Shown here piece after piece: positions 1-34,382 of a stretch of DNA of 64,000 bases (within the stretch, counting starts at the first letter, position 1; every line of letters starts with the position of its first letter). The stretch spans positions 434,001-498,000 of the forward strand of contig NZ_JALRMO010000001.1 in NCBI RefSeq assembly GCF_023276405.1, given 5' to 3'. Made by a program: the position numbers and the translations under genes. The notes beneath the pieces were generated by a model that did no database searches, was not told the DNA's origin, and saw nothing but the letters and a program-made list of their open reading frames with translations. Source of the DNA: Paenibacillus hamazuiensis (lineage in GTDB: Bacteria; Bacillota; Bacilli; Paenibacillales; NBRC-103111).

Positions 1-368
1 GTGTTCTCCACCGTCGCTTCGCTGAGCTGGGTGCTGATGTTGTGCTGGACGTTGATCGGGATCGCTTCACCGCTCACAAAAACGACGGCTGTCCCGCGCA
101 ATACCGACTGCAGAAGCGCTTCCGGCGCAGGGATGTTTGGCATATGGGAAAGCGAGCGCACGTACTGCACATAGTCCTGCAAATTTTGAAATTGCGTAAA
201 AAACGGCACGATATACAGCTTCTGAAGAGTCGCCACGTCGGTAACGCTTTTCAGGTAATAAATCGCAGCCGTTTGTCCGTCGTATTTCAGTTCCTGCTGT
301 ACGAAATCGGTAGAATCGGACAGCTTTTGCCGCAGCCATGTTTGCAATTGCGGTATTTGTGAAGTCAT
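1..368 (-). CDS. GerA-type spore germination receptor subunit A, N-terminal fragment
   Basis: Partial gene; its 3' part lies beyond the left edge. About 122 residues are visible from the ATG at 366-368, which has GAGGACCGGAGC upstream. The protein starts MTSQIPQLQTWLRQKLSDS and contains DFVQQELKY, IYYLKSVTD and GTAVVFVSGEAIP, ending in STQLSEATVENT just where GerA-family proteins carry their conserved 'EEPxTExVVRGPREGF' stretch. That order matches the N-terminal cytoplasmic domain of GerAA/GerKA-type germinant receptor subunits, which sit in the inner spore membrane. It points to a spore former. Which germinant or which of the several paralogues cannot be told from the fragment. The gene is transcribed away from the small gene at 502. 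Confidence 0.75.
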   Translation of the reverse strand, partial: MTSQIPQLQTWLRQKLSDSTDFVQQELKYDGQTAAIYYLKSVTDVATLQKLYIVPFFTQFQNLQDYVQYVRSLSHMPNIPAPEALLQSVLRGTAVVFVSGEAIPINVQHNISTQLSEATVEN

Positions 369-445
369 GCTCCGGTCCTCTTTTTTGACATTAGGATGGC
401 TTCAAAGCCATATTTTGATGCATTTTCCGGAAAAATATGCGAGGC

Positions 446-478
446 GGTTAGAATTTGGTTAGACGGGCTGTCTATAAT
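446..478 (+). promoter_or_regulatory. Promoter with paired GGTTAGA heptamers (SARP-type activator site)
   Basis: Two GGTTAGA heptamers at 446-452 and 457-463 lie in direct repeat with an 11-bp period. Nine bases later comes a TATAAT box at 473-478. There is no good -35 hexamer; the heptamers occupy its place. SARP regulators are known to bind heptameric direct repeats with 11-bp periodicity about 8 bp from the -10 box. The site faces the 77-residue gene at 502. The same layout recurs at 2123-2155, on the other side of the SARP/BTAD-domain regulator gene. That the regulator binds here is inference. Confidence 0.7.
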
Positions 479-501
479 GTTGAAGAAAAAGGGGTAAGAG
501 C

Positions 502-735
502 ATGTTTTTACGCATTTTTATCCATAACCGATGGATACCGGTGAATTTATCGAATGGGGAGTATTCCGAAGCGTTGGTGGAGGAACTGACCGATAAGTTG
601 AAAATCCGGCTCGAGCATGCACCCGAAAACGAGAAGTGGGAGGGGCTTCAGGCGATAGAATTGGAATCGACAGCCGCTGAATGGGAAGTGACATTATACT
701 TTAACAACCGTACGGAAAGTTTCCGCATCCGTTAA
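502..735 (+). CDS. Small protein of unknown function (77 residues)
   Basis: ATG start with AAGGGGTAAGAGC upstream. I do not recognise the family. The sequence (MFLRIFIHNRWIPVNLSNGE...) is soluble, acidic in the middle, without signal peptide, membrane segment or cysteines. Its alternating hydrophobic pattern at both ends (FLRIFIHNRW and EVTLYFNNRTESFRI) suggests a small alpha/beta domain with paired strands. It is a single-gene unit: the heptamer promoter at 446-478 drives it, and a hairpin terminator at 781-810 closes it against the convergent regulator gene. The shared promoter type links it to the SLH surface protein at 2526, so a role in the same regulon is the best inference. Confidence 0.7.
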   Translation: MFLRIFIHNRWIPVNLSNGEYSEALVEELTDKLKIRLEHAPENEKWEGLQAIELESTAAEWEVTLYFNNRTESFRIR

Positions 736-780
736 TCGCGATTTCCTTAAGATCCGGAATCGCAGATCCGCTTAATTTCG

Positions 781-810
781 GCAAAAACAAGGGAACTCCC
801 TTGTTTTTGC
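781..810. terminator. Bidirectional intrinsic terminator
   Basis: A perfect 13-bp inverted repeat, GCAAAAACAAGGG at 781-793 and its complement at 798-810, with a 4-base loop AACT. The A/T-rich outer part of the stem supplies a U-run on either strand. It lies between the converging genes at 502 (+) and 822 (-) and probably ends both transcripts. Confidence 0.85.
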
Positions 811-821
811 GGCAAGACGTG

Positions 822-1988
822 CTAACACTGAATGGGTATGCCGGGATTGTTATTTATCCTTTTGTCCGATCTCTTCCATTGTGCGTACCATTCCATGATT
901 CCGGGACTAGGATCGACTCCGGCTTCCTGCTCCAATGTTCGGATCATAAATTCATATTGCTTCTCAACAGATTCCGTGTCATCCAGTCGAGCGTACAGAT
1001 TCATCAGCGCGAAATAACTATCTTCGTACAAAGGATCCCTCTCTTGAATTTGATGGTAAACACCAAGCGCCTCCATGTTCATGCCAAGAGAATGATAGAA
1101 TTGTCCCAGCTGCAGGGCATGCTGTAACCATAGGGCCTTGAGTCTTTGGCGTTCACCCTCTGCCCACGCATAGTTATCCTCTTCATAAAAATTTCCGCGA
1201 TACATATCGAGCAATCGCTGGTGTTCGGCGGTATTTTCGATCGAAACGGGGGTTAACCGGCGAAGCTCCTGCTCCCATTCTTCAGCATCGATTCGCAGAT
1301 CTTTCGACTCAAGGATATATCCGTACTGGGAATATCGGATCGAAATATAATCGTCCCCGAACGTATTTTTCCATGCGTTGCGAATACGATTAATGCTGGT
1401 ATGCAGGTTGGCAAGCCCTTTGGATTCGTCCAGTTCCGGCCAAAGCAGCTCCAGCAAGGTGTTTTTGTTAATCATTTTCCCTCGATGGTGCAGCAAGTAG
1501 GCAAACAGCTCTTTCGCTTTCGTTGTTCTCCACTTCAGAAATTCCGGTTCGCCGTCCGGCTTCCGGATCTGCATGGCTCCTAAGCAATGATACAATAAAG
1601 TTTGATTTTTCGGGGGCCCCGATTCAAGCGCAACGCGCTTCCGCAGACGCTGTATGGTTAGGCTCAACCGGTCGCGTTCCAACGGCTTCATTAAATAATC
1701 GGCCGCTTCCAGTTCGAATGCCTCGACCGCATAATTGCCATAGGCTGTCACATAGACAATATTCGTGTCCGGCGCGACGGCGTGTATTCGTTCGGCCGCC
1801 TCCAAGCCGTTCAAATCCGGCATGTGTATATCCAGAAAGACGGCGTGGGGCCTGAGCCGGCCAATTTGATCAATCGCCGGCTCAGCCTCCGAAAAGGAAC
1901 CGATGACCTGGCAATCGCGGAACTCCCTGAGCATTTTCTCCAACCTGACTAACGCCAGTTTCTCATCGTCCACCAACACGACTTTCAT
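822..1988 (-). CDS. Response regulator with SARP/BTAD output domain
   Basis: A 388-residue cytoplasmic regulator. Residues 1-120 form a receiver domain (KVVLVDDEK, phospho-acceptor D53 in FLDIHMPDL, T81, K101 in YLMKPL). Residues about 150-235 form an OmpR-like winged helix (TTKAKELFAYLLHHRGKM... LWPELDESKG... SINRIRNAWK), and about 245-375 form the alpha-helical bacterial transcriptional activator domain (YRGNFYEEDNYAWAEGER). This is the receiver-SARP architecture. I chose the ATG at 1988 because it begins MKVVLVDDEK and has GGAGG 10 bases upstream; an ATG nine codons earlier lacks one. No histidine kinase gene is adjacent, so the phosphate donor is unknown. It lies between two heptamer promoters (446-478, 2123-2155), which makes it their likely activator. 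Confidence 0.9.
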   Translation of the reverse strand: MKVVLVDDEKLALVRLEKMLREFRDCQVIGSFSEAEPAIDQIGRLRPHAVFLDIHMPDLNGLEAAERIHAVAPDTNIVYVTAYGNYAVEAFELEAADYLMKPLERDRLSLTIQRLRKRVALESGPPKNQTLLYHCLGAMQIRKPDGEPEFLKWRTTKAKELFAYLLHHRGKMINKNTLLELLWPELDESKGLANLHTSINRIRNAWKNTFGDDYISIRYSQYGYILESKDLRIDAEEWEQELRRLTPVSIENTAEHQRLLDMYRGNFYEEDNYAWAEGERQRLKALWLQHALQLGQFYHSLGMNMEALGVYHQIQERDPLYEDSYFALMNLYARLDDTESVEKQYEFMIRTLEQEAGVDPSPGIMEWYAQWKRSDKRINNNPGIPIQC

Positions 1989-2525
1989 ATGGCAGATGCC
2001 TCCATCCGTCGACATTTGTATATATACTATCGGTAATACAGTTTCCCATCTTTATAGGAATTTTTTCGGATTGAATCCTATATTCAACCAGTTGAATGAA
2101 ACCGACAAACTCTATTATCCGTGGTTAGAGTTTGGTTAGAGGTTTTGTCTATAATAATCCAGAGATTAGGGTCTTCCGCTATTATTGTCTTTCGACATAA
2201 ATAATACAGGCACCATGCAACGGCAAGAATAGCGCTATAAATTACAGCCCGTCAAAAAAGAGAGAGGTGACTGAAGCTGCCAATACGTCGAAACAGGGGG
2301 AGTTTTGTATATTTTTGAAGCTCGGACGGGTCCCCTCACGTTGGTTTGCAAAAAAAATCGAATGGCGGCGGTTGCTGCCGCAAACGTTACAAAGCAATAT
2401 TTTTATTCTGAGGGGGGATGCCCGTGAAAATTTGAATGTTTTCTCGTGTTCCTGACCGCATCCGAATATGGGTCTGGAGTTGGATCGGATCACCGTCTAT
2501 TAATTTGAAACAGGAGGATGTATGA
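1989..2525. other. Intergenic region: regulator upstream region and long 5' leader of the SLH gene
   Basis: This 537-bp stretch holds no convincing gene. It contains the upstream region of the minus-strand regulator, the heptamer promoter at 2123-2155, and about 360 bases of likely untranslated leader before the SLH gene. I looked for known riboswitch cores (c-di-GMP, c-di-AMP, preQ1) in the leader and recognised none. A purine-rich GAGGGGGG near 2411 precedes an ATG with only a few codons. The ribosome binding site AGGAGG at 2512-2517 belongs to the SLH gene. Confidence 0.6.
2123..2155 (+). promoter_or_regulatory. Promoter with paired GGTTAGA heptamers, second copy
   Basis: GGTTAGA at 2123-2129 and 2134-2140 (11-bp period), a 9-base gap, then TATAAT at 2150-2155. 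Heptamers, spacing and -10 box match the promoter at 446-478, while the spacer bases differ, so the shared parts look selected. Transcription from here would run into the SLH surface protein gene. The regulator gene starts at 1988 on the opposite strand, so the site could also affect its expression. Confidence 0.7.
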
Positions 2526-5500
2526 ATGGCAATGACATTGCGGAATTTGCGCAAACGTTGGAAAAAGCAGCTCATTATGCTGCTTCTGATCGCCATGGTG
2601 GCGGCAAGCTTCTCCAATCTCGTTGCGCCGCTTGAGGCAGAGGCGGCAAGTCCGGCGAATCTGGTCGCGAGCTATGATTTTAACGGGAATTTCTCGGACA
2701 GTCTCGGTAACTCCCAATTGTCGGTAGTATCCGGCACCTATGGGGGCAAAACTTACAGCAATTCGACGTCCGCATTTGGGACCGATTTATCCGTTACCGA
2801 TTCCACCTACTGGCGGTGGACCTCCAACGCACAGAACGGCGGGGGGTTCACGATCGATCTGGACCCCAATATCAGCGACCATTACAGCATCGGCTTGAGG
2901 TTCTCTTTTGATTCAATACCGGGTGGGTATGCAAAAATAATTGACTACAAAAACAAAACCTCGGACGACGGATTTTATTTTAACAATGGCAAACTTAATT
3001 TTTATCCCACGTCTACTGGAAATCTGACGACAGCGGCCAACCAAGTAGTGGACATTATCGCTACGAGAGATAGAACGACCCAAAAGTTTATCGCCTATAT
3101 GGTAGTAAACGGCGTTTTAGCCAAGCAAATTGAAACTGTGGGCAGCAATTCTGTTCCGGTAATCGTGAATGGGAAAGTACGTTTCGGTTTCTTCCATGAC
3201 GACTATGCTACTGCCGGCGAGAAGACGACCGGCGGCAAAGTGTACTCAATCAAATTTTGGGACGGCCCAATTACCCAAGAACAGGCTCAGGGAGCTATGA
3301 ATACGCCCGCGCCGGCCTTAAGCGCGACTGCGACGGCAGGCACTGCGCCTGGAACGACGAAACTAACAGCGACCCCGGGAGCGGGACACACATTGGCCGT
3401 TCGTGTATCAGACGCTGCGATTGCCGTTCCGAATATCGGGGAAGCAGCGCCTACGGGAACGGGAGTCATTAACCCGTATGCGTCCGGCGCGGACATTAGC
3501 AGTGTGGATGCGACGACGAACAAGTATGTAGGCATTTACGAGATTGATGCGCTGGGCAAAATCGTAGCTTTCAAGATGATTACGCTGACGGCAGGCGAGA
3601 TCTCGCCGGCAGGTGCGGCAAGCGCACCCGGCGGCGTAACCGGAAAGCCGGTCGTATGGTTGAAAGCGGAGGATGCCGTTCCTGCCGCGAACGGTTCCGC
3701 TTTGACAGGCTGGACGAACCAGGCTGGCGAGAATAAATTCCAAGTGGATGGAGCATTGGCCGGAAAGCCGAATTATCAGGCTGCAGGCGTTAACTTTAAC
3801 CCTGTGGTCGCTTTTAACGGCAACGCTCGCCTTCTCGGCGACAAAAGCGTTACGATGGCGGAAGCGTACACGGTTACGGCGTGGAATGGAGCGAAAGACG
3901 CCGCCCGTGGAGCGGTAGTTGCGCCGGTCGATCTTTCTCCACTCGGCAACGGGAGATACTTCTTTGATTCGGTAGGCGTTCTGTATGCCGGCAACGGCGA
4001 TGGAGGTTATTTGCAGGCAAGCCCGCCCGAAAATGGGGAGTACGCAGTCTGGACGGCCTCGTTCCCGAGCATTTTGAGGAAAAACGGCATTAATGCAGGG
4101 TCCGGGACAACAGGCGCAACGATGACGGACATTCCTCAAATCGGCAGCCGCAAGGCCGATGCTACCAACAATAACTATCTCAAAGGCAATATCGCAGAAG
4201 TGATCGTATTGAACAGCGCGGCAACAGCGGATGAGCGGAGCAGGATCGAAAGCTACTTGGCGCTCAAATACGGCTTGACGCTGAATAACGGCAAATCGGA
4301 TTATGTGGCCAGCAACGGCAGTAAAATGTGGTCGGCGGCGGATAACGCCGGATTCGACCAGCGCATTACCGGTATCGGCAAAGATTCCGCGAGCGGTTTG
4401 GAGCAAAAGCAATCCAAGTCCCAGGAAAACGGGGCGCTCGTGACAATTGCCGCAGGCAATGAAATCAAAGCTTCCAACGAAGCGTATCCGGAAGGCACCA
4501 TTCAGAACGATCTTTCGTTCCTTACGTTTAGCGACAACGGCGGCGATACGGCTTATAACACGGCTGTCGGCAGTTCGAACCTGCAGCGGATGGCGCGTGC
4601 GTTCAAGGTCGACAAAACGAACTGGAAAGACGGGAATGTCACATTGCAGCTTGACGGCACGCAAACCGACAAACTGACCTATGTCGTGATCGGAGGCGAT
4701 TCCGGATTTACCGGAACGCTGAAAGTCGCACAGTTGACAGAGGGGAAGGTCACTTTGAACAGCTCGGATTTGGCTGACGGCAGCTACTTTACGTTCGCGC
4801 AGGTGGTCGCCGTATCAAAAGCTCCGGGCGGCGTAAGCGGCGCCTCCTTGTGGCTGAAGGGCGATAAAGACGCCACCGCTAACGGGGCAGGGCAGCTTAC
4901 CGGCTGGACCGATCAGACGGGCACGAACCGATTCGAGGTGAAAGGTGCGCCGGCTTATAAGTCCGAAGCAGCCAACTTCAATCCTGCCGTATCGTTCGAT
5001 AATACGACAAAGCCGAATCAAAATCCGAACCAGTATCTGATCGGTGACAAGCAAATTACGTACAAGGACGGATATGTCGTATTCAAGCAGACGGACGGCA
5101 CGGCCGTCGGATCGGCAGCTCCGCGTCCGGGCGGGTACGGAGTCGGCATCTTTTCGAAGTGGGGCAAATTGTATATAGGCAACGGAGCGACCGGCACTTA
5201 TCGCGGATTTTCCTTTAACGACGCTTCCCGGTATTATTTGGCCGCTTTTGATGCAGCCGCTTCGATAGAGTCTCAAGGCCGATTGAACGGAACGCCTCAA
5301 ACCGTTGCAGGCGACAATTCGTTTAGCCAAATCGACTTTACTCCGGTCATCGGAGGCACGTTCGGCGGAGGGAATCCGAACAACTGGTCCCATTTCAAAG
5401 GCGAGCTCGCCGAAGTTGTTCTTTACCCGGCAAGCCATACCGTACAAGAGAAACAACAGATCGAAAGCTACCTGGCTTTGAAATACGGCTTGACGCTGAA

Positions 5501-8500
5501 TGGCGGCAAAACGGATTATACGACCAGCAAAGGCAGCAAGTTTTGGACGGCCGACAACAATCAGGGCTACGGCAACCGGATTACCGGCATCGGCCGGGAT
5601 GACGGCAGCGACTTGTATCAAAAGCAGTCCAAATCGCAAGTGCAAGGCGCGCTGGTGACGATCGCCTTGGGCGACTCCGTTCAAGCGTCCAATGCAGCCA
5701 ATACGAATACGATTGACGCCGATTCTTCGTTTTTCGTTTTCAGCGACAACGGCGCAACTGCCAAATATGAAACCAATGTTCCGGAAGCTCCGGGACATAC
5801 GCTCAAGCAGTTGAACCGTATGTTCAAGGTGGAAAAGTCGAATTGGCAGGACCGGAACATCACCTTGAAGTTGGATGTGGCAGCCGAAAATCCTTCCGTA
5901 CTGTACTATCTCATTATCGACGGAGTGAATTCGGGCATTAAGCTGGATGCGGCGGGTCAGGCTACTTTTGACAGCAGCAAGCTCGGCAACGGTTCTTTAT
6001 TCACTTTCGCGAAAGTGTACAAAAACGTTCTTCAGAGCAAGCTGACCGGAATCAAAGGTTTGACGGAGGCGAGCTACACGCCGGAAAGCTGGACGGCGCT
6101 GCAAACTGCGCTGACTGATGCCGAAGCCGTGCTGAACAATCCGGGTTCTACGCAGGAGCAAGTCGATGCGGTCTTGGCCGCTTTGGAAACCGCCCGGGCC
6201 AACTTGAGCAGCGTGGCTGACAAGCTGAAAACCAAAATGGACGAAGTCCAAAATGAGATTACAATCGGCACCTTGAAACCGGGCGATTACACGACAGACA
6301 GCTGGGGAGTTCTGACCAGGGCTCTGGACGACGCGAAAGCGCTGCTTAACCGCACGCCGCAAGCTACTCCGGTCGAGCTCGGACAAGCATTGTCCGCACT
6401 GGAACTGGCGCGGGGCACTTTGGTCGATTTGAGCAAGCTGCGTGCCAAGGAAGCGGAGATTGTCGGCGAACAATTAAATCCGGCAAGATATACGCCAACC
6501 AGCTGGCAGGAGCTGCAGCAAGCGCTGAGCGAGGCACAAGCCGTGCTGTCCGATCCGGATGCGACGCAAGCCGAGGTTGATGCGGCGAAGACTGCGCTGG
6601 AAAAGGCGAGAACCGCTCTGGTTCCGGTAGCCGATAAATCCAAGCTGCAGGAGAAAAAAGACGCAATCAACGGCGAAGGCTTGACGGAATCGGAATTCAC
6701 GCCGGAAAGTTGGGCGGCGCTGAAAAATGCGCTGGTTCGGGCCGAGACGGTGCTGAGCGATCCGGACGCAACCCAACAGGAAGTCGATACGGCGTTAGCC
6801 GTCCTGATTTCCGCACGCAATAACCTGGTGAAAGCGAGAGCTAGTCTCGATGTACTCGATGCGGTTTACAAGGTCGGGGACGGGAATCCGGTCCCAATCG
6901 CACTGTACCCGCAATTTGACGGAAAGCTGTACCTGAATTACGAAGCTGTTGTTCCGAACGCTGTTGACAAAATCAGCATCAATCCGAAGACGTTTGATCC
7001 GAACGGTACGGTTAGCGTGACGTTGAACGGCCAACCGGTGAATGCGGCGGATTGGAGCAATTTGCCGCTCAAGGAAGGTCTTAACGTAATTAAAGTGGAA
7101 ACGACGGGGCCGGACGGCAGCAAGAACGTTTACACCATCGAGGTGATGCGCGTTACCGGCAAGCTTGTATCGCTCACGCCATCCGAAGGCAGCATGGTCC
7201 CGGCTTTCAATCCGGACGAAAAAACGTACAACTTGAGCGTATCCAAAAACGTATATGCGCTTCAATGGACGCCGGTTGCGCTTGATCCGCAGGCTGTCAT
7301 CGAGATCAGCATCAACGGCGGACCTTTCGCGAAAGTGACTAGCGGAACGGCAAGCGAAGCTCTTCCGCTGCAGGGCGGCGTTAACACGATCGTCGTCAAG
7401 GTTACGGACCGTGACGGAGGAATTACGCAGTATACGATTACTGTAACCAGAAAATCCTCTTCCTCCTCGAGCGGAGGCAATTCGGGAGGCGGATCTGGAG
7501 GCGGTACAGGCACTTCCAGCCCGACAGACATTATTTCGAGCGTAAACGACAAGGATGCCGACTTTGCCGCCGGAACCGTGGACAATTCCGGTGATCGGAC
7601 ACGAACGAACGTTGTCATCGATGCCGATAAGCTGGCGGAGCTGATCGATCAGGGCACCGGACAGAAGTTCGTCATTCGTGTTCCGAACGATGGGGATATC
7701 GAAACGAAAGGTTTGACGGCCGAGCTTGTCCGGCGATTGACGGAATCCGGTTCGAGTTTGGAAATCGGCAACTTGCTGGCGATTTATCCGATTCCGGGCA
7801 AACAACTGAACTTGAGCGACATTGCAAAAAAATTAAACGATGCCGCCCTGGGAGATATTGAGGTCCAGGTCGAGATCAAGCGCGCTTCCGCATCTTTGAA
7901 CGAGATTGCCAAGGATAAGGCGTCGACCCAAGGTTATGAGCTGCTCGTTTCGCCTGTCGATCTGAAGCTCAGCTTCTCCAGCCGGGGACAAACGGCCCAA
8001 GCGAATCGATTGAGCGGATATGCGGCGAAATATATCGCATTGCCGGAAGGTATCGATCCGAACCGGATTACAACAGGCGTTTACGTAAATCCGGACGGAA
8101 CCGTGTTCCATCTGCCGACGGTCGTTACGAAAATCGACAACCGCTATTTCGCTCGGATCAACGATCTGCGCAGCAGCGGCACATATTCCGTGATCTGGAA
8201 TCCGCAGGATCTCGATGATGTGAAAAACCATTGGGCCAGAGAGGACGTTAACGATGTCGTCGCAAGGCTGATTCTTGAGGGGACCGGGAACAACACGTTT
8301 ACCCCTGACCGGAATGTAATTCGTTCCGAGTTTGCGGCAATTACGGCAACGGGTATGGGTCTCATGCGTCAAAATATTGACGGGAACACGTTTGGCGATG
8401 TTCCTCCATCCTCTTGGTATCATGATGCGGTTGCCGTCGCTAGTGAATTCGGCATCGTGCTCGGTTACGAGGACGGCCTTTTCCACGGCGATCGGCAAAT

Positions 8501-8777
8501 CACGCGGGAGCAGGGCATTGCCATGATTTCGCGGGCTTACGATCTGATTGAGACGAAAAGCTCGAAGAGCGAGGCGGAGATCGAAAAGATCCTTTCCTCT
8601 TACAGCGATGCGGCGAATGTATCCGGCTGGGCGAAAGAAGCCGTTGCCCGGATGATTGCGGCCGGAATCGTCGAAGGCCGGGAAGGCCAAATGCTGAGAC
8701 CGCAAGAGAGCATGACTCGCGCGGAAGCATCGGCATTAATTAGAAGATTGCTCAAATCCACAAATTTGATCGATTGA
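2526..8777 (+). CDS. Giant S-layer-homology surface protein with LamG-like, duplicated adhesin-type, FIVAR and cadherin-like domains
   Basis: A 2083-residue exported wall-associated protein. The ATG at 2526 follows AGGAGG by 8 bases. Residues 1-41 are a signal peptide ending AEA/AS. Next comes a LamG-like sandwich (about 45-250), then two related modules of about 395 residues (366-760 and 765-1160). Each opens with APGGV...LWLK, continues with ESYLALKYGLTLN and RITGIG, and closes with an LxRxFKVxKxNW segment. Four FIVAR-type helical repeats follow (about 1170-1438, each with YTPESWxxLxxAL and VDAxxxxLxxAR). Then come two cadherin-like sandwiches (1442-1642), a Ser/Gly linker (1643-1664), an unassigned region, and three SLH domains (about 1893-2083) that bind pyruvylated wall polymer. 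It is likely an adhesin or surface-display protein; no catalytic motif was seen. A heptamer promoter precedes it and a strong terminator follows. Confidence 0.92.
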   Translation: MAMTLRNLRKRWKKQLIMLLLIAMVAASFSNLVAPLEAEAASPANLVASYDFNGNFSDSLGNSQLSVVSGTYGGKTYSNSTSAFGTDLSVTDSTYWRWTSNAQNGGGFTIDLDPNISDHYSIGLRFSFDSIPGGYAKIIDYKNKTSDDGFYFNNGKLNFYPTSTGNLTTAANQVVDIIATRDRTTQKFIAYMVVNGVLAKQIETVGSNSVPVIVNGKVRFGFFHDDYATAGEKTTGGKVYSIKFWDGPITQEQAQGAMNTPAPALSATATAGTAPGTTKLTATPGAGHTLAVRVSDAAIAVPNIGEAAPTGTGVINPYASGADISSVDATTNKYVGIYEIDALGKIVAFKMITLTAGEISPAGAASAPGGVTGKPVVWLKAEDAVPAANGSALTGWTNQAGENKFQVDGALAGKPNYQAAGVNFNPVVAFNGNARLLGDKSVTMAEAYTVTAWNGAKDAARGAVVAPVDLSPLGNGRYFFDSVGVLYAGNGDGGYLQASPPENGEYAVWTASFPSILRKNGINAGSGTTGATMTDIPQIGSRKADATNNNYLKGNIAEVIVLNSAATADERSRIESYLALKYGLTLNNGKSDYVASNGSKMWSAADNAGFDQRITGIGKDSASGLEQKQSKSQENGALVTIAAGNEIKASNEAYPEGTIQNDLSFLTFSDNGGDTAYNTAVGSSNLQRMARAFKVDKTNWKDGNVTLQLDGTQTDKLTYVVIGGDSGFTGTLKVAQLTEGKVTLNSSDLADGSYFTFAQVVAVSKAPGGVSGASLWLKGDKDATANGAGQLTGWTDQTGTNRFEVKGAPAYKSEAANFNPAVSFDNTTKPNQNPNQYLIGDKQITYKDGYVVFKQTDGTAVGSAAPRPGGYGVGIFSKWGKLYIGNGATGTYRGFSFNDASRYYLAAFDAAASIESQGRLNGTPQTVAGDNSFSQIDFTPVIGGTFGGGNPNNWSHFKGELAEVVLYPASHTVQEKQQIESYLALKYGLTLNGGKTDYTTSKGSKFWTADNNQGYGNRITGIGRDDGSDLYQKQSKSQVQGALVTIALGDSVQASNAANTNTIDADSSFFVFSDNGATAKYETNVPEAPGHTLKQLNRMFKVEKSNWQDRNITLKLDVAAENPSVLYYLIIDGVNSGIKLDAAGQATFDSSKLGNGSLFTFAKVYKNVLQSKLTGIKGLTEASYTPESWTALQTALTDAEAVLNNPGSTQEQVDAVLAALETARANLSSVADKLKTKMDEVQNEITIGTLKPGDYTTDSWGVLTRALDDAKALLNRTPQATPVELGQALSALELARGTLVDLSKLRAKEAEIVGEQLNPARYTPTSWQELQQALSEAQAVLSDPDATQAEVDAAKTALEKARTALVPVADKSKLQEKKDAINGEGLTESEFTPESWAALKNALVRAETVLSDPDATQQEVDTALAVLISARNNLVKARASLDVLDAVYKVGDGNPVPIALYPQFDGKLYLNYEAVVPNAVDKISINPKTFDPNGTVSVTLNGQPVNAADWSNLPLKEGLNVIKVETTGPDGSKNVYTIEVMRVTGKLVSLTPSEGSMVPAFNPDEKTYNLSVSKNVYALQWTPVALDPQAVIEISINGGPFAKVTSGTASEALPLQGGVNTIVVKVTDRDGGITQYTITVTRKSSSSSSGGNSGGGSGGGTGTSSPTDIISSVNDKDADFAAGTVDNSGDRTRTNVVIDADKLAELIDQGTGQKFVIRVPNDGDIETKGLTAELVRRLTESGSSLEIGNLLAIYPIPGKQLNLSDIAKKLNDAALGDIEVQVEIKRASASLNEIAKDKASTQGYELLVSPVDLKLSFSSRGQTAQANRLSGYAAKYIALPEGIDPNRITTGVYVNPDGTVFHLPTVVTKIDNRYFARINDLRSSGTYSVIWNPQDLDDVKNHWAREDVNDVVARLILEGTGNNTFTPDRNVIRSEFAAITATGMGLMRQNIDGNTFGDVPPSSWYHDAVAVASEFGIVLGYEDGLFHGDRQITREQGIAMISRAYDLIETKSSKSEAEIEKILSSYSDAANVSGWAKEAVARMIAAGIVEGREGQMLRPQESMTRAEASALIRRLLKSTNLID

Positions 8778-8804
8778 CAGCTCCGATAATGAATGATTTG
8801 GAAG

Positions 8805-8838
8805 CCGGCATCCGACAGGATGCCGGTTTTTTTTTTTA
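8805..8838 (+). terminator. Intrinsic terminator of the SLH gene
   Basis: Stem CCGGCATCC (8805-8813) and GGATGCCGG (8818-8826) with a 4-base loop, followed by twelve T residues. It lies 28 bases after the SLH stop codon. Confidence 0.95.
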
Positions 8839-8992
8839 GTTTAGGAAATTATGCATGGCTAATTTTTGTGGATAACCGGGGATTCCCCCAAAAGTACTAG
8901 GAATAGGCTGCAAAGGTTCACTTCACTGTTGGGGGATTTGTTCTCTTGTGGCGAGGATTTATCATATCCGGGGGGCTGGCAGCACGCATATC

Positions 8993-9010
8993 TTCAGAAT
9001 ACATTCAGAA
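8993..9010 (+). promoter_or_regulatory. Direct heptamer repeat, likely OmpR-family regulator site
   Basis: TTCAGAA at 8993-8999 and again at 9004-9010, an exact 11-bp period. A third similar TGCAGAA sits at 9027-9033, about two helical turns further. OmpR-type winged-helix regulators bind such direct repeats. The only regulator of that type nearby is the response regulator at 9658, in the operon just downstream, so autoregulation is the likely meaning. The rest of the interval 8839-9084 shows no gene. Confidence 0.5.
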
Positions 9011-9084
9011 ATTGTTGCGCTTATTTTGCAGAATTGTCGGTTACCCTGAAGATAATGGAAAACCGAAGGGAGAGCGACGGGATC

Positions 9085-9654
9085 ATGGTTAGAGTGATCA
9101 GGGAAAAACTGATTTTTCTGCATAAATTTATATGTTCGCCGGGGCAAATCGGGAGCGTGACGCCAAGCTCCGGATTTCTCGCGAAAAAGATGATGGAACC
9201 GGTAACTTGGGGTAAAATGGAATATGCAGCCGAACTCGGCGCCGGCACGGGGGCGATCACCCGTTACGTGAACCGGGCCAAGCCAAAGAAAACGAAGGTG
9301 CTGCTGTTCGAAAAAGATCCGTATTTGCGCACCCGGCTTGCCCGGGACTTTCCGGATTATGCTTGCTACGCGGATGCTTGCGAGCTGCGGTCCGCTCTGC
9401 AGGAAGAAGGCATCGACGGACTCGACTGCATATGGAGCGGTCTTCCGTTTTTCAATTTTCCGCAAGCCGTGCGCGACCGCCTTATGGAGCAAATTGCGGC
9501 ATCCTTGAAACCCGGCGGCCTGTTTATCGCTTTCCAGTATTCCCTGCAAATGAAGGAGCAGCTCGGCGGGGTGTTCGATATCGAGCACATCCGCTTCGTT
9601 CCGCTGAACGTGCCACCGGCTTTCGTATACGTTTGCAAGAAGAAGGAGGAATGA
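9085..9654 (+). CDS. Class I SAM-dependent methyltransferase (phospholipid / rRNA-adenine-dimethylase-like)
   Basis: A 189-residue cytoplasmic enzyme. KFICSPGQIGSVTPSSGFLAKKM near the N-terminus, the SAM-binding AAELGAGTGAITRYV, the acidic motif II LFEKD and the later WSGLPFFNF place it with small methyltransferases related to PmtA-type phospholipid N-methyltransferases and KsgA-like enzymes. The substrate cannot be decided. I start it at ATG 9085 (MVRVIREK), with AAGGGAG about 12 bases upstream; the frame is open 73 codons further 5', but that stretch does not resemble the family. It ends three bases before a two-component system, with the ribosome binding site AAGGAGG inside its last codons, so the three genes form an operon. 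Confidence 0.75.
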   Translation: MVRVIREKLIFLHKFICSPGQIGSVTPSSGFLAKKMMEPVTWGKMEYAAELGAGTGAITRYVNRAKPKKTKVLLFEKDPYLRTRLARDFPDYACYADACELRSALQEEGIDGLDCIWSGLPFFNFPQAVRDRLMEQIAASLKPGGLFIAFQYSLQMKEQLGGVFDIEHIRFVPLNVPPAFVYVCKKKEE

Positions 9655-9657
9655 CGT

Positions 9658-10353
9658 TTGAGCAAGACGGTATTGGTCGCGGACGACGATCCGGAAATTC
9701 GCGATGTCGTGCACATTTATATGAAAAATGAAGGCTACCGCGTGCTTGAGGCGGAAAACGGAGTCCAGGTGTTGGAGGCGCTGCGCCGCGAACCGGTCGA
9801 TCTCGTCATTCTGGACGTAATGATGCCGGAGATGGACGGCATTCAGGCCTGCTTCAAGATCAGGGAACGATCGAACGTGCCGATTATCATGCTTTCCGCC
9901 AAAAGCGAGGATATCGATAAAATCGCCGGGCTCACGACGGGAGCCGACGACTACGTGGCGAAGCCGTTCAATCCGCTCGAGCTGGTCGCCCGGGTTCGAG
10001 CGCAGCTGCGCAGGCAGTCGTTTGCCGGCTCCGGTGCGGCGAAAGCGGCCGATGATGCCGTTATTGAAATCGACGATCTGATCATCAACAAAGATCGCCA
10101 TCAGGTTTCAGTCCGCGGCAAGGACGTGGCGTTGACCCCTACCGAATTTTCGATTTTGGAGCTGCTGGCGAGCAACCGCGGCCGCGTCTTTAACATCGAC
10201 AACATCTATCAAAGCGTATGGAAAGAGGAGAAGTTTTTATCCGATAACACCATCATGGTGCACATCCGCAAAATCCGCGAAAAAATCGAAGACAACCCCA
10301 GAGAACCGCGTTATCTCAAAACCGTTTGGGGAGTGGGATATAAAATTGATTAA
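9658..10353 (+). CDS. OmpR-family response regulator
   Basis: A 231-residue regulator, TTG start after AAGGAGGAATGACG. The receiver domain (VLVADDDPEIRDVV, phospho-acceptor D53 in ILDVMMPEMDG, K in YVAKPFNPLEL) is followed by an OmpR winged helix (LTPTEFSILELLASNRGRVF ... TIMVHIRKIREKIE ... GVGYKID). It overlaps the next gene, its partner kinase, by 8 bases. The overall type is the VanR/PhoP-like group common in Firmicutes that respond to envelope stress. The signal is unknown. Heptamer repeats at 8993-9010 are a candidate target. Confidence 0.93.
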   Translation: MSKTVLVADDDPEIRDVVHIYMKNEGYRVLEAENGVQVLEALRREPVDLVILDVMMPEMDGIQACFKIRERSNVPIIMLSAKSEDIDKIAGLTTGADDYVAKPFNPLELVARVRAQLRRQSFAGSGAAKAADDAVIEIDDLIINKDRHQVSVRGKDVALTPTEFSILELLASNRGRVFNIDNIYQSVWKEEKFLSDNTIMVHIRKIREKIEDNPREPRYLKTVWGVGYKID

Positions 10354-11404
10354 AGATGCTTTGTCCGTGCTGAACTGGAAAAGAAATATCCGGGGCAAGA
10401 TGTTTTGGTCCGCTTTTTTGAGCTTCACTGCCGCGGTGTATCTAACGTCACTTTTGGGCAATGATCTCGGCATCATTACCAATCCGTTTGGCAGCTACGC
10501 GGTGATGATCGTTTCTTTTTTCCTGCTGTTTTATATTCTGACGAGGCCCGTCGTTCGTCAACTGAAGAGGCTTGCCGACGGTCTGATGTTTTTGGCTGGC
10601 GGAAATCTGGATTACCGGGTGCCGCTGTCCAGTCAGGACGAGCTCGGAAAGGTTGCGCAAAACATCAATTACATGGCGGAACAGCTGCAAGAGATGATGG
10701 AAAAAGAACGCCGGATCGAAATGTCGAAAATGGAGCTGATCACGAGCGTCTCCCACGATTTGCGCACGCCGCTCACCAGCATTATCGGTTATTTGAATTT
10801 GCTGAAAAACGACGATTATCAAGATCTTGACGAACATAAACGGTACATCGGCAATGCGTTTAACAAAACGCAGCAGCTGAAAAAGCTGATTGACGATCTG
10901 TTCGAATATACGCGACTGACGAGCGGAGCGGAGCAGCTTGATCTCCGCACCGTCGATTTGAGCGGTTTGCTGGAGCAAATCATCGCCGAATTCGAGCCGA
11001 TTGCGCAGGAACACTCGCTGACGGTCCGTACGGACTTGGGGCAAGGAAGGGTGTTCGGAAGCGTCGACGTCGAAAAATTCGTGCGGGCTGTCGATAATTT
11101 GCTCGTCAATGCGCTGAAGTTTTCGGTGCAGACCGGTGACATTGCCGTCAGGCTGGCCGAGAGAGAGGAGCATATTCGTCTCGAGGTGGAAAACCGCGGC
11201 AAGCCGATCACGAAGGAGCAGGAGCAGCTGCTCTTCGAGCGCTTCTATAAAGCCGAGCCGTCGCGAAGCGATAACCGGATGCCGCCGGGGGGAGGGCTCG
11301 GGCTTTCGATCGCGAAAAACATCGTAGAGCTGCACGGCGGACGAATCGGCTTACATCATCATGAAGGCCTCTTTGTTTTTTATATCGAACTTCCGCGGAC
11401 TTGA
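10346..11404 (+). CDS. Membrane sensor histidine kinase (VanS-like)
   Basis: A 352-residue kinase with a TTG start inside the end of the regulator gene. Two membrane helices (about residues 20-38 and 50-66) enclose only a dozen residues, so it has almost no extracytoplasmic sensor; such kinases usually sense within the membrane or through a partner. A HAMP domain (about 66-118), the phospho-acceptor H137 in SVSHDLRTPLTS, the N-box DNLLVNALKFS and the G-box GGGLGLSIAKNIVELHGG follow. It pairs with the regulator at 9658. The upstream methyltransferase in the same operon suggests a membrane or lipid-related response, which is inference. Confidence 0.93.
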   Translation: MIKDALSVLNWKRNIRGKMFWSAFLSFTAAVYLTSLLGNDLGIITNPFGSYAVMIVSFFLLFYILTRPVVRQLKRLADGLMFLAGGNLDYRVPLSSQDELGKVAQNINYMAEQLQEMMEKERRIEMSKMELITSVSHDLRTPLTSIIGYLNLLKNDDYQDLDEHKRYIGNAFNKTQQLKKLIDDLFEYTRLTSGAEQLDLRTVDLSGLLEQIIAEFEPIAQEHSLTVRTDLGQGRVFGSVDVEKFVRAVDNLLVNALKFSVQTGDIAVRLAEREEHIRLEVENRGKPITKEQEQLLFERFYKAEPSRSDNRMPPGGGLGLSIAKNIVELHGGRIGLHHHEGLFVFYIELPRT

Positions 11405-11438
11405 TGCGTTTTGGATGAAATGAGGAGGGGAACAAGCG

Positions 11439-12965
11439 ATGTACGTAGTGACCGCTGAGGAAATGAGGGCGCTGGACCGGTATACGATCGATCTGATCGG
11501 CATTCCGGCACTGGTGCTGATGGAAAACGCCGGCCGTGCCGTGGCGGAGGAGGTGGAGCGCATCGCGGCTGTGGTTGGGCGCCGTTGGCTGATTTTGGCC
11601 GGGAAAGGCAACAACGGGGCCGACGGCCTCGTCTGCGCGCGGCATCTGCTGGAAGCCGGGCTGCAGCCGATGGTGGTGTATGCCGCCGACCCGCGGACGC
11701 TGACCGGGGAAGCGGCCGTGCAGCGGGACATCGCCGCAAAGCTTGGCGTGCCTTGTGTGGAGTACGACGGGGCTGCGCTCCCGTGGCACGAATGCGACGG
11801 CGTGGTCGATGCACTGCTCGGCACGGGAACGAGCGGTCCGCCGCGCGGCATATACGCGCGCCTGGTCGAAGAGGCGAACGCCAGCGGCAAGCCGATCGTT
11901 GCCGTCGACATCCCGAGCGGGCTGGATGCCGATACGGGCGAGGTGCCCGGGCCGTGCATCCGCGCGGTGAAGACGGTCGCGCTTGCGTTCAAGAAGCGCG
12001 GCCTTGTGCAGTACCCGGGCGCCGACTATGCCGGGGACGTCGTCGTCCGCTTCATCGGCATTCCGAGCCGGTTGGCGGAGGAGCACGGAGTCGCCGTCGT
12101 GGAGCTCGGCGAGCAGTCGTTTTTGGCGCGGCTAAGGGTGGATCCGGCCGGGGTGCGACCTGCCGATACGCACAAGGGCAGCTACGGCCATGTGCTCGTC
12201 GCCGCCGGCAGCCGGGCGATGTCCGGCGCGGGGCTGCTGGCCGCGACGGCCGCGCTGCGCGGAGGCTGCGGGCTCGCGACCTGGGCGCTGCCGGACAGCC
12301 TCGTGCCCGCGCTGCTCGGGCGCCGGCCCGAGCTGATGCTCGCCGGCGTGGCGGACGGCGGCAGCGGCGATTGGAGCCGGAGCGACCCGCAGGCGCTGCT
12401 GGCGCTCGCCGCCGGTAAGCAGGCGCTCGTCATCGGCCCCGGCATGGGCCGGTGGCCGGGCGACAGCGCCTGGCTGCGGGCGATCTGGGAGGGCGCCGAT
12501 CTGCCGCTCGTAATCGATGCCGACGCGCTGAACATGATCGCGGATGCGGCCGATTTCGGCGCGTGGCCGGCGAGGCGTGCCCCGGCGGTGCTGACGCCGC
12601 ATCCGGGCGAGATGGCCCGGTTGGCCGGAATCGGCACCCGCGAGGTGCAGCGCGATCGCATCGGCCTCGCCCGCCGCTATGCGATGCAGCACGGCGTGAC
12701 GCTCGTGCTGAAGGGCGCCCGCACCGTGTGCGCCGCGCCGTCCGGCGAGGCATACGTGGGCTCCACGGGCAACGCCGGGATGGCGACCGCGGGCGCGGGC
12801 GACGTGCTCGCCGGCGTGATCGGCGCGCTGCTCGCGCAAGGGCTGTCCGCCGTGCAGGCGGCCGCGCTCGGCGTCTACGCGCACGGCGCCGCGGGCGACC
12901 GGGCGGCGGCGGGACGCCGCTCCGCCGGCTCGCTGATCGCCGGCGACATCATCGCCGAGCTGTAG
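11439..12965 (+). CDS. nnr: Bifunctional NAD(P)H-hydrate epimerase / ADP-dependent NAD(P)H-hydrate dehydratase
   Basis: A 508-residue repair enzyme. The N-terminal YjeF_N epimerase domain (about 1-215; MYVVTAEEMRALDRYTID, GKGNNGADGLVCARHL, VDIPSGLDADTG) interconverts R- and S-NAD(P)HX. The C-terminal ribokinase-like dehydratase domain (about 225-505; HKGSYGHVLVAAGS, MSGAGLLAATAALRGG, LTPHPGEMARL, AGAGDVLAGVIGALLAQGL) regenerates NAD(P)H using ADP. ATG start with GAGGAGGGG upstream. This family often sits near acpS and alr; that context is missing here. GC content is far above the neighbours (one 60-base line at 12301 counts 49 G+C), and the excess GC extends past the stop codon to about 13030. 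Confidence 0.95.
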   Translation: MYVVTAEEMRALDRYTIDLIGIPALVLMENAGRAVAEEVERIAAVVGRRWLILAGKGNNGADGLVCARHLLEAGLQPMVVYAADPRTLTGEAAVQRDIAAKLGVPCVEYDGAALPWHECDGVVDALLGTGTSGPPRGIYARLVEEANASGKPIVAVDIPSGLDADTGEVPGPCIRAVKTVALAFKKRGLVQYPGADYAGDVVVRFIGIPSRLAEEHGVAVVELGEQSFLARLRVDPAGVRPADTHKGSYGHVLVAAGSRAMSGAGLLAATAALRGGCGLATWALPDSLVPALLGRRPELMLAGVADGGSGDWSRSDPQALLALAAGKQALVIGPGMGRWPGDSAWLRAIWEGADLPLVIDADALNMIADAADFGAWPARRAPAVLTPHPGEMARLAGIGTREVQRDRIGLARRYAMQHGVTLVLKGARTVCAAPSGEAYVGSTGNAGMATAGAGDVLAGVIGALLAQGLSAVQAAALGVYAHGAAGDRAAAGRRSAGSLIAGDIIAEL

Positions 12966-31890: not shown

Positions 31891-33711
31891 TTCCTTCTTC
31901 CTGTTCAATTCAAAGAAAAACAGCACGCCGTCCTCGGTATTCATAGCCCCGTAAGGCGCCCCGTGCAGCTCCAAAATTTGCTTGCAGATGGCAAGGCCGA
32001 GCCCGGTGCCGCCGGTCGAACGATGGCGGGAGCGTTCGCCGCGGTAGAAGCGATCCCATATTTTCTCCATCTGGTCGTCCGGAATGTGAGCGCCTTTGTT
32101 TTCGATGTATACCTTGACGGTCTCCCGTTCCTCGACGGCCTTAACGAAGACGCTTTCGCCTTCCGGCGTGTAGCGGATCGCGTTCGTCAGGAAGTTCACG
32201 ACGACCTGCTCGATGCGCAGCGGATTGGCGACCACATAGGCGGGGACGAAGCGGGTATGCAGCCGCAGCCGCTTGCCGGCAATATCCGGAGCCAGCTTCG
32301 CGCAAACCCGCTCCAGGATGGCGTCGATGCGGAAAGAAGACATTTCCATCTTATAGGTCCCGGATTCGTATTTCGCGAGCTCCAGCATGTCCGCGATCAG
32401 CAGGTTCATCTTCTTCACTTCGTCTTCCATGGCCGAGAAGTAATGCTCTCGCTTCTGGCTGTCCGGCTTGTCTTTAATAATGTAAAGGCAGCTCTCGATG
32501 ACGCTGAGCGGGGTTTTCAATTCGTGAGATACGCCGGCGATGAACTCTTTTCGCGTTTGCTCCAGCCGCTTTTCCCGCTCGATATCCTGCTCCAGCCGGA
32601 CGATATGGTCATGCAGTAAGCTTGAAAGCTCGTTGATGTTGCGGGACAAGTTGCCGATCTCGTCATCGGTTGAAACCGGAATTCGGGCGGAAAAGTCCAG
32701 GTTGGCCATTCTTTGCGTCGCGTCGTTCATGCGAAGCAGCGGACGGGCAATGCGGCGGGTATAATAAAAAGAGGCCAGCAGGACAAGCAGCAAGGTGCCT
32801 AACACGATATAGCCGTAATACTGGATCATCACTCCCGCGGCTTCGTTCACGGGCTGGAGCGACGTCATGGCAAACAAGTACTCGGCGTTTCCTGTCCGAT
32901 CCGTCAAGCGTTTGACGAATATTTTGTAAGGAACGTTGTTTTCCTCGTAATCGCTGACGGTATCGGCTTTTCCGCTGAAATCTCCGTAGAGCAGTTCGGC
33001 TTGAAAAGCTTTCACCCGTTCCAAAAACAAATGGTTCGTATACCGCGATTCGTTCGCTCCCTCCGGCGTCCGGACTTGCGTTAGCGTACCGTATACCAAA
33101 GCGTTAGGGTAACGTTCGTGATATTCGGTCGGGCTCTTGAACCTCGGGACGACTTCGTATTCCTTGCGGTTGAGCTGTCCGTTTTCCAGACGGTTTTCCT
33201 CCCGCAGATTGGAGGCGTTCCTCCCGATCCGCTGCGGGAACAGCTGCTTGTCGATCAGGACGCCTTCGATGGCGATGCGTCCCCCCGGTTTAACGAGGAT
33301 GTCGGATCGAAGCGGATTGTCGGCGCTCAAATCTTCCACATTCATGACCGTGTAGAGCGGAATGGCAATTGTTCGGCCAGATAGAGCGGAAGCGTCCGCC
33401 GAATTCTCCAATCGCACCTCCATTTCGAAGTCGTCCGCATACTTCAAGCTGCCTTCGGAGTTCAGCACGGTAATCCAGGTGTTGTATTTTTGATAAAATT
33501 GCTGCTCGTTCCGGAACGCGGTCCGGGCATCCCCGGCATTTCTCCAATCTTCTTGAGAAGCGGCTTGAAGGGCGGTCCGAACGTTATCCACCTTCTTATA
33601 CACGTAGAACATCTTGAAAAACAAGGTTTGTCCGGCAAAGATACTGGCGATCACAAATGTGCATAAGCCTGTTGTAAGCAGAAACAGCTTGAAGACGATG
33701 CTCTTCCTCAT
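31885..33711 (-). CDS. Sensor histidine kinase with large extracytoplasmic domain
   Basis: A 608-residue membrane kinase. A first helix (IVFKLFLLTTGLCTFVIASI) and a second (IQYYGYIVLGTLLLVLLASF, about residues 297-318) enclose some 270 extracytoplasmic residues of no recognised domain. A HAMP domain (RPLLRMNDATQRMANLDFSA), a coiled coil, the HisKA site with H396 in AGVSHELKTPLSV, the N-box VVNFLTNAIRYTPEG and the G-box GGTGLGLAICKQILELHGAP follow. Its ATG overlaps the TGA of the regulator gene upstream (ATGA), so the pair is translationally coupled. Signal unknown; the lone large sensor suggests a peptide or envelope cue. Confidence 0.93.
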   Translation of the reverse strand: MRKSIVFKLFLLTTGLCTFVIASIFAGQTLFFKMFYVYKKVDNVRTALQAASQEDWRNAGDARTAFRNEQQFYQKYNTWITVLNSEGSLKYADDFEMEVRLENSADASALSGRTIAIPLYTVMNVEDLSADNPLRSDILVKPGGRIAIEGVLIDKQLFPQRIGRNASNLREENRLENGQLNRKEYEVVPRFKSPTEYHERYPNALVYGTLTQVRTPEGANESRYTNHLFLERVKAFQAELLYGDFSGKADTVSDYEENNVPYKIFVKRLTDRTGNAEYLFAMTSLQPVNEAAGVMIQYYGYIVLGTLLLVLLASFYYTRRIARPLLRMNDATQRMANLDFSARIPVSTDDEIGNLSRNINELSSLLHDHIVRLEQDIEREKRLEQTRKEFIAGVSHELKTPLSVIESCLYIIKDKPDSQKREHYFSAMEDEVKKMNLLIADMLELAKYESGTYKMEMSSFRIDAILERVCAKLAPDIAGKRLRLHTRFVPAYVVANPLRIEQVVVNFLTNAIRYTPEGESVFVKAVEERETVKVYIENKGAHIPDDQMEKIWDRFYRGERSRHRSTGGTGLGLAICKQILELHGAPYGAMNTEDGVLFFFELNRKKEA

Positions 33712-34382
33712 GGCCGATCCTCGAATTTGTAGCCTGAACGAACGACGGTGACGATCCGGCATGCATGCTCGCCCAGCTTGGAACGCAGATTGCGGATATG
33801 GCTGCTTAAAGTACGATCGTCGCCGGCGAAGTCGTAGCCCCAAATTTTCGAGATGAGTTGATCCCGTGTGATAATGTTGCCTTTGTTCTTCATCAGGCAG
33901 GCCAATATTTCGAATTCCGTATGCGTCAGGCTGCAGAGCTTCCCGTCCAGCGTAACGGTGCGGGACGGGAGATGGACCGCAATCCCCCCGCCGGACAACG
34001 TATCCCCCGGCTCGCGGATTTGCCGGTTTTCCAGCAGCCGTTTCGTTCGCGCCAGCAGGATGGGAGGGCTGCAAGGTTTGACAACGTAATCGTCCGCACC
34101 GAGCTCAAATCCCAGCAGCGTGTCGTTCTCGTCCGACCGGGCCGTCAACATCAGAATCGGAACGTTCGACGTCTTGCGAATCCGCCGGCAGACGGACCAC
34201 CCGTCCAATTCCGGCAGCATAATGTCCAGAATGATCAGATCGATCTCATGCTCATGAAACAACTCCAAAGCCCGGCTCCCATCGCTCGCCTCCACCACGC
34301 GGAAGCCTTCGTCCAACAAATACTCCTTCATGATTTCCCGCAGTATTTGTTGATCTTCCACGATCAAGATCGTTTTCGGCAT
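33708..34382 (-). CDS. OmpR-family response regulator
   Basis: A 224-residue regulator with receiver domain (ILIVEDQQILREIMKEYLLD, phospho-acceptor D53 in ILDIMLPELDGW, K in YVVKPCSPPILLAR) and OmpR-type winged helix (SLTHTEFEILACLMKNKGNI, LISKIWGYDFAGDDRTLSSHIRNLRSKLG, VRSGYKFE). It partners the kinase encoded directly after it. Both stand between the O-acetylation operon and a sugar uptake locus. A role in cell-envelope adaptation is plausible but not shown. Confidence 0.93.
   Translation of the reverse strand: MPKTILIVEDQQILREIMKEYLLDEGFRVVEASDGSRALELFHEHEIDLIILDIMLPELDGWSVCRRIRKTSNVPILMLTARSDENDTLLGFELGADDYVVKPCSPPILLARTKRLLENRQIREPGDTLSGGGIAVHLPSRTVTLDGKLCSLTHTEFEILACLMKNKGNIITRDQLISKIWGYDFAGDDRTLSSHIRNLRSKLGEHACRIVTVVRSGYKFEDRP

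Follow-up and report, generated by a model that had tools for sequence, protein, structure and literature searches.

In the 64,000-nucleotide stretch of the genome of the soil bacterium Paenibacillus hamazuiensis analysed here (contig NZ_JALRMO010000001.1, positions 434,001 to 498,000; hereafter the window), two promoters of matching design lie on either side of a gene for a regulator in which a receiver domain precedes a SARP module. It is very probable, in our judgement, that this receiver-gated SARP, of the COG3947 type, activates dedicated surface-protein promoters, here those of a giant protein with SLH domains and of a gene for a 77-residue protein. Binding, activation, phosphorylation and the signal are what we infer; the sequence evidence covers the conservation of the sites, their spacing, their placement before surface-protein genes and the covariation of their bases with the recognition helix of the regulator. 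The layout is that of an ordinary SARP promoter in an unusual place, and it is one case of a broad regulatory pattern of which we found no description.

Two promoters built on paired heptamers

The sequence GGTTAGA-N4-GGTTAGA-N9-TATAAT occurs in two exact copies on the + strand of the window, at 446-478 and 2123-2155, with the identical spacing reported in a preliminary description of this DNA. The principal features are:

446..463, + strand: operator 1, GGTTAGA-ATTT-GGTTAGA, an 11-bp direct repeat found by a pattern scan of the window
473..478, + strand: -10 element of promoter 1, TATAAT, without a -35 hexamer (best match 3/6 at spacers of 16-18)
502..735, + strand: gene for the 77-residue protein, first target; without a known family; 7 of the 104 family genomes, its own included, have a homologue
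822..1988, - strand: regulator, 388 aa, with receiver (3-112), OmpR-type winged helix-turn-helix (wHTH; about 132-232) and BTAD domain (259-368)
2123..2140, + strand: operator 2, GGTTAGA-GTTT-GGTTAGA, inside the longest invariant block of five species
2150..2155, + strand: -10 element of promoter 2, TATAAT, which closes the invariant TTGTCTATAAT
2526..8777, + strand: giant exported protein, 2083 aa, second target, with SbsC_C, FIVAR and cadherin-like domains and three SLH stretches

The whole genome (8,795,693 bases in two contigs) contains only these two sites with up to three mismatches, so the motif is not scattered, and the reversed-pattern control gave none. At the same tolerance there is no third site in the window and none in 100 dinucleotide shuffles of it. 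The spacer bases, at first described as different, are so only in part: ATTT and GTTT have TTT in common, and CGGGCTGTC and GGTTTTGTC have TGTC in common before the -10 element. Flanking identity between the sites is 30% over 60 bases upstream and 40% over 60 bases downstream, which rules out that a larger promoter was duplicated recently. A chance likeness between two promoters with strong -10 elements, or recent copying of a single one, without any common regulator, would suit the small number of sites in the window. This explanation is opposed by the empty shuffles and the dissimilar flanks and is refuted by the conservation of each operator in other species (below); we give it practically no credence.

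Both sites aim away from the regulator. The first -10 element stands 23 nt before the ATG of the 77-residue protein gene (502) and the second 370 nt before the SLH gene (2526), and neither faces the regulator gene. Autoregulation is therefore unsupported. The compact regulon proposed in the preliminary description stands for the small protein and the giant surface protein; the regulator gene does lie between the two sites, on the minus strand, but its own membership of the regulon is not supported.

The 3′ repeat ends 9 bp before the -10 element if the heptamer is taken as GGTTAGA and 8 bp before it if taken as GTTAGAG or GTTAGAC. Period and distance agree with those given for SARP operators in the available portions of PMC10936776, as the preliminary description had supposed. 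Neither site has a -35 hexamer, and the 41 best sites of the family (defined below) match it no better (mean 2.27/6) than random positions do (2.39/6). The promoters should therefore need an activator, and the missing -35 element is compatible with activation by sigma adaptation. A regulator that binds these sites and represses, blocking the -10/-35 region until released by phosphorylation, would also account for operators that overlap the -35 region. The lack of a -35 hexamer speaks against repression, at the two sites and in the family means, and so does the placement, which equals that of AfsR, an activator (PMC10936776, in the portion available); we regard repression as unlikely.

Conservation of the locus in relatives

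Orthologous regulators are 76% identical in Paenibacillus sp. RC67 (locus L151), 74% in Cohnella nanjingensis (L152), 58% in P. thalictri (L153) and 77% in genomes G110 and G115. In L151 and L152 the operator lies in the interval from the regulator to the gene of an SLH protein, and in C. nanjingensis its region equals site 2 across the 35 bases compared, -10 element included. P. thalictri (L034, L153) has GGTCAGA as its first heptamer and, once more, an SLH protein (1645 aa) as the target. An alignment of the intergenic regions of five species (about 200 nt each) has as its longest invariant blocks TGGTTAGAGTTTGGTTAG (18 columns) and TTGTCTATAAT (11 columns). The relaxed pattern GGTYAG-N5-GGTYAG-N10-TATAMT has nine matches in six of the 104 family genomes, eight of them at orthologous regulators, and none in the reversed control. 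The C-terminal part of the giant protein is 51-59% identical to SLH proteins at the equivalent place in L151, L152, L272 and L273.

The gene for the 77-residue protein keeps similar company. A receiver-SARP gene was found in six of the seven loci with a homologue, and L241 (the window), L242, L243, L247 and L245 have an operator in front of the homologue. In L245 it reads TTGTATAG and stands 370 nt from the homologue, with no receiver-SARP gene in the surrounding 13 kb. In L246 (genome G116, identical to the RC67 record over the two stretches compared) the copy of the small gene is broken and the operator is found on the SLH side only. At L151:6223-6395 a decayed, frame-broken copy lies directly behind the regulator on the same strand and in the orientation opposite to that of the window copy. 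The motif is thus conserved in relatives beside orthologous regulators, upstream of SLH genes and of the 77-residue protein gene, as the preliminary description would predict.

The regulator

The receiver scores 79 bits and the BTAD domain 46.4 bits (cut-off 22.1); the wHTH, as Trans_reg_C, reaches 24.6 bits, slightly under the Pfam cut-off of 26.2. The receiver looks competent for phosphorylation because D8, E9, D53, T81 and K101 are invariant among 40 aligned sequences. The predicted model has a mean predicted local distance difference test (pLDDT) value of 91.6 and fits the SARP module of AfsR over about 256 columns, with a template modelling (TM) score of 0.67-0.70 of the target. A sequence comparison of the wHTH-BTAD part with PDB likewise puts AfsR first (E 0.0004), and both AfsR and EmbR are matched by profile and by fold.

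The protein carries the hallmarks of a SARP module: an OmpR-type wHTH followed by BTAD, direct repeats 11 bp apart at its sites, and a 3′ repeat about 8 bp from the -10 element over the -35 region, where the distribution of gaps peaks. A receiver with a phosphoacceptor Asp joined to a SARP output places it with the COG3947 type, as judged by domains and residues and not by the COG model; a kinase gene in the neighbourhood is not required in this class. It departs from the classical small and large SARPs of Streptomyces in that the receiver (3-112) precedes the wHTH and the operators face the 77-residue protein and SLH genes, not a secondary-metabolite cluster.

A spacing rule across the family

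Each site was scored by comparing two 9-mers spaced by 11 bp, every match counting twice, and by adding the matches to TATAAT, with 9 nt between, within 1 kb on each side of 154 regulators of receiver-wHTH-BTAD architecture; all locus sets contain related sequences. At a score of 20 the 11-bp period was found at 39 of the 154 regulators, and periods of 8, 9, 10, 12, 13, 14 and 15 at 6, 8, 4, 6, 0, 2 and 2. The contrast is sharper at higher scores (27 of 153 regulators vs 0-2 decoys at 21; 17 vs 0-2 at 22) and weak at a score of 18 (70 vs 16-37 decoys). The rule was derived on 81 loci. Among further loci the layout was present in 21 of 54 vs 3-10 decoys (19 of 50 vs 3-10 once four overlapping loci were removed). 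A second further set, without overlap with the earlier ones, gave 17 of 45 loci vs 0-3 decoys, and a third, made of wider versions of loci in the 45-locus set, 15 of 20 vs 1-3. The heptamer sequence itself differs from one regulator clade to another. Six of the 41 best sites (L035, L291, L049, L082, L109, L188) are likely false or on the wrong strand by eye; all were kept in the counts.

A generic genome-wide pattern proved unsuitable. The version TTNNNNAG-N3-TTNNNNAG-N9-TATNAT, one base off, had 16 matches in 13 of 40 genomes vs 19 in the reversed control and was kept as a spacing control. The corrected N10 version had 21 matches in 14 of 40 genomes vs 10 in the control, many with repeated heptamers, and was too loose for a census.

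In 26 of 41 cases the gene behind the best site has at least 500 codons and a product with a hydrophobic N-terminus, vs 5 of 60 at decoy spacings. Apart from the window's own there are 25 such long products, of which 20 were compared with Pfam (L058, L086, L108, L168 and L194 were left out, and the locus end truncates several products). Twelve carry SLH domains, one an LPXTG anchor (L048; 27.3 bits, cut-off 20), and five only Ig, fn3, cadherin-like or similar domains. The remaining two are signalling proteins, an MHYT-GGDEF-EAL protein (L163) and an MHYT hybrid kinase (L039). The former, at L163:6487-8538 in Lysinibacillus telephonicus, stands behind a receiver-SARP site and points to a possible link with cyclic-di-GMP. 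In the clade searched with L105, TTTAAG pairs occur at 14 of 20 loci; 13 of these 14 lie about 3.2-3.5 kb from the regulator, before an open reading frame (ORF) of 858-1246 aa whose N-terminus is hydrophobic by eye. At L081, the own-genome member of this clade, a kinase gene occupies this interval.

Covariation of heptamer and recognition helix

The recognition helix of the regulator spans about residues 188-210. AfsR T88 and R92 contact bases -36 and -38, and its -35 element (-38 to -33) is TTCAGC, according to the available portions of PMC10936776. In an alignment on TTCAG these bases correspond to positions 6 and 4 of the repeat unit scored here, and T88 and R92 align to T197 and R201 of the window regulator. 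Among 3806 column pairs, T197 with position 6 ranks fifth and R201 with position 4 twelfth. Of the 12 columns aligned to DNA contacts of AfsR, the 11 testable ones rank higher than the others (p=0.0026, and 0.0051 when sequences are thinned at 70% identity), and with a site filter (10 testable) the values are p=0.036 and, after thinning, 0.0032. A subset of five helix columns gave p=3e-7 and is not relied on. It was picked after the ranks were known, and the full AfsR contact list was used for that reason.

Regulators with Arg201 have G at position 4 in 10 of 13 cases vs 1 of 28 for the others (Fisher 2.6e-6, relatedness ignored, the Arg-G cases coming mainly from two clades), and those with Gln201 have C at position 6 in 15 of 16 vs 3 of 25 (Fisher 1.8e-7, relatedness again ignored). 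Of 17 held-out sites, 16 belong to R201 regulators, and G4 is present in 10 of these 16. When regulators less than 35% identical are compared, the nearest neighbour by six helix contact columns agrees at 5.40 of the 9 bases and all pairs at 4.11; neighbours chosen by receiver (4.13), BTAD (3.47), wHTH outside the helix (4.33) or whole helix (4.56) agree at fewer. Below 45% identity the lead of the contact columns shrinks: they give 5.39, BTAD 5.02, the receiver 4.59 and all pairs 4.28.

Regulators of the OmpR type, too, bind direct repeats of about 10-11 bp. The repeats could be the operator of another response regulator of that type, such as the one encoded at 9658-10353, which together with a kinase is present in the window, with the receiver-SARP gene merely adjoining. 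The operator, however, tracks the receiver-SARP gene across genomes, its bases covary with the receiver-SARP recognition helix, and the layout occurs in one of 26 control loci, inside their decoy range of 1-6 (a receiver-only set, not a wHTH-only OmpR-type one). We consider this explanation improbable, slightly more so than repression by the receiver-SARP.

A stronger proposal, which we judge about as likely as not, is that the receiver-SARPs of Bacillota are a set of insulated regulator-to-adhesin switches with a readable code, in which the bases in the middle of the heptamer are determined largely by helix residues 200-201 (window numbering). Under such a code N-R would read GGTTAG, H-R GGTCAG, Y-Q TTCAG, Y-R GTGAG or GAGAG, and S-F/Y/L TTTAAG.

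Paralogues and signal input

The same genome encodes at least five receiver-SARPs at E<=1e-20 (48 of 189 candidates scored), and their candidate operators differ: GGTTAGA in the window, TTGTTTAG at L035, TTGCTCAGA at L069, TTTTAAGG at L081 and TTGTGAGA at L086. Exact TTGTTYAG pairs, the L035 type, number six in the genome and none in the reversed control. Three, including the TTGTTTAG pair, fall within about 6 kb of the L035 regulator and three elsewhere; this paralogue may have a wider regulon. One of the distant pairs, TTGTTCAG at L388 (G000:C1:4334982-4335000), lies upstream of a PelF-like glycosyltransferase gene (99.6 bits, cut-off 100; cut by the locus end) with a poor -10 element (TAGGCT), hinting at a link between a receiver-SARP and exopolysaccharide. 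Behind another, no ORF was called.

A hybrid kinase (7TMR-DISM, HisKA, receiver, His_kinase) is encoded near the orthologous regulator in L151, L152, L272, L273, L275 and L276. Homologues 46-47% identical occur in the P. hamazuiensis genome at L297 and L298, with no receiver-SARP gene in the surrounding stretch, and are candidates for the partner kinase of the window regulator. In the window itself, 31957-34373 and 59993-60595 are 26-38% similar to parts of the L152 or L151 hybrid kinase and represent other histidine kinases or receivers.

Other features of the locus

The 77-residue protein is predicted to form strands and one helix (pLDDT 83); no family was matched, and the best PDB fold match has E 0.22, with none at E<=0.001. 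No riboswitch or other known RNA in the leaders was matched by Rfam within 1-12000. After the SLH gene region, 9658-11404 encodes a pair of OmpR-type response regulator and histidine kinase. One further feature lies between the convergent genes for the small protein and the regulator:

781..810, no strand: perfect 14-bp inverted repeat between two convergent genes, read from the sequence, not folded

It is probably a two-way terminator.

Weighing the interpretation

In the mechanism that we propose, a kinase would phosphorylate the receiver, and two regulator molecules would then sit side by side on the GGTTAGA heptamers, which are spaced by 11 bp and overlap the position of the absent -35 element. 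From there the regulator would, by homology with AfsR, recruit RNA polymerase to TATAAT. Two units would be switched on, the 77-residue protein gene from the promoter at 446-478 and the giant SLH protein gene from that at 2123-2155. The locus would belong to a large family in Paenibacillaceae and other Bacillota, in which each group of receiver-SARPs would have heptamers of its own that its recognition helices read, and would often serve the gene of a giant surface protein nearby.

Several observations weigh against this interpretation. The hybrid kinase is absent beside the window regulator and from the 10 kb upstream of the window, and also from the stretches of L034 and L277. One GGTYAG match, in genome G112, has no receiver-SARP gene within 1.5 kb, and L244 has a homologue of the 77-residue protein beside a regulator with no site at threshold. 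In the family, 112 of 153 regulators lack a site at a score of 20 within 1.2 kb; some sites lie further off and others were not found. Among the 17 held-out sites, six consist of ATCAAGC-type repeats, unlike the heptamer of their clade. Columns outside the DNA-binding domain score high in the covariation analysis (Y263 with position 6 first and C26 with position 4 second of 3806), two columns of AfsR contacts, T155 and W183, come far down the ranking (326 and 227 of 345), and the tests leave relatedness partly unremoved. A rule suggested by two loci, that helix type Y-H reads TATAG, was rejected, with TATAG pairs in 2 of 26 Y-H loci.

Two of these cases come with further observations. At L301 (G112:C31:42388-42420) a GGTTAG/GGTCAG pair is followed by TATAAT, and a receiver-SARP of another clade is encoded about 24.6 kb away on the same contig. 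The ATCAAGC-type 11-bp repeats stand before a -10 element near six regulators of the Y-R clade (L312, L316, L318, L324, L329, L335) and are possibly conserved coding sequence.

Relation to known systems

EmbR of Mycobacterium tuberculosis is not known to carry a receiver. It has the wHTH-BTAD core in common with the window regulator (PDB 2fez, 2ff4) and differs by a C-terminal FHA domain, in the portion of its description available. A close parallel in promoter layout is AfsR, the Streptomyces SARP of the afs box (PDB 8hvr, 8k60, 8jke), with which the window regulator shares the wHTH-BTAD fold. Its sites are likewise 11-bp direct repeats over the -35 region with the 3′ repeat 8 bp from the -10 element, and its upstream repeat overlaps the -35 TTCAGC (PMC10936776, available portions); the TTCAG core is the commonest class here (7 of 16 Q201 regulators). 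AfsR differs in having NOD and TPR domains and no receiver and in controlling antibiotic production, whereas the window regulator has a receiver before the SARP module, surface-protein targets and the heptamer GGTTAGA. Operators of PimR-type SARP-LAL regulators are also heptameric direct repeats with 4-bp spacers, but have the consensus CGGCAAG, three repeats, a main operator clear of the -35 box and antifungal clusters as targets (PMC5930380, available portions).

The preliminary description held that SARPs are known mainly from actinobacteria, which is a fair statement, although the class of receiver-SARP proteins outside that phylum had already been named COG3947 (PMC3564903, in the part available). 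Its example Deide_19260 of Deinococcus deserti likewise has a CheY-like receiver followed by a SARP output; in that part of the same source its kinase is stated to be unknown and its targets unstudied, whereas the present analysis names an operator and targets and, for relatives, a kinase close by. A literature search, including the available portions of PMC10936776, PMC5930380, PMC3564903 and PMC12175726, found no operator or target for any receiver-SARP of Bacillota.

Implications

Receiver-SARPs are abundant in Paenibacillaceae, where a genome has as many as 13 matches at E<=1e-20, counting partial ones. On the interpretation favoured here, many of them gain a testable operator and target, the SARP promoter layout extends beyond actinobacteria, and the class is tied to cell-surface proteins and, for one paralogue, perhaps to a PelF-like polysaccharide gene. 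Operators with different heptamers within one genome would serve as orthogonal switches. If the regulators are indeed insulated switches, paralogues in one genome would use different operators and the surface architecture of the cell would be switchable protein by protein.

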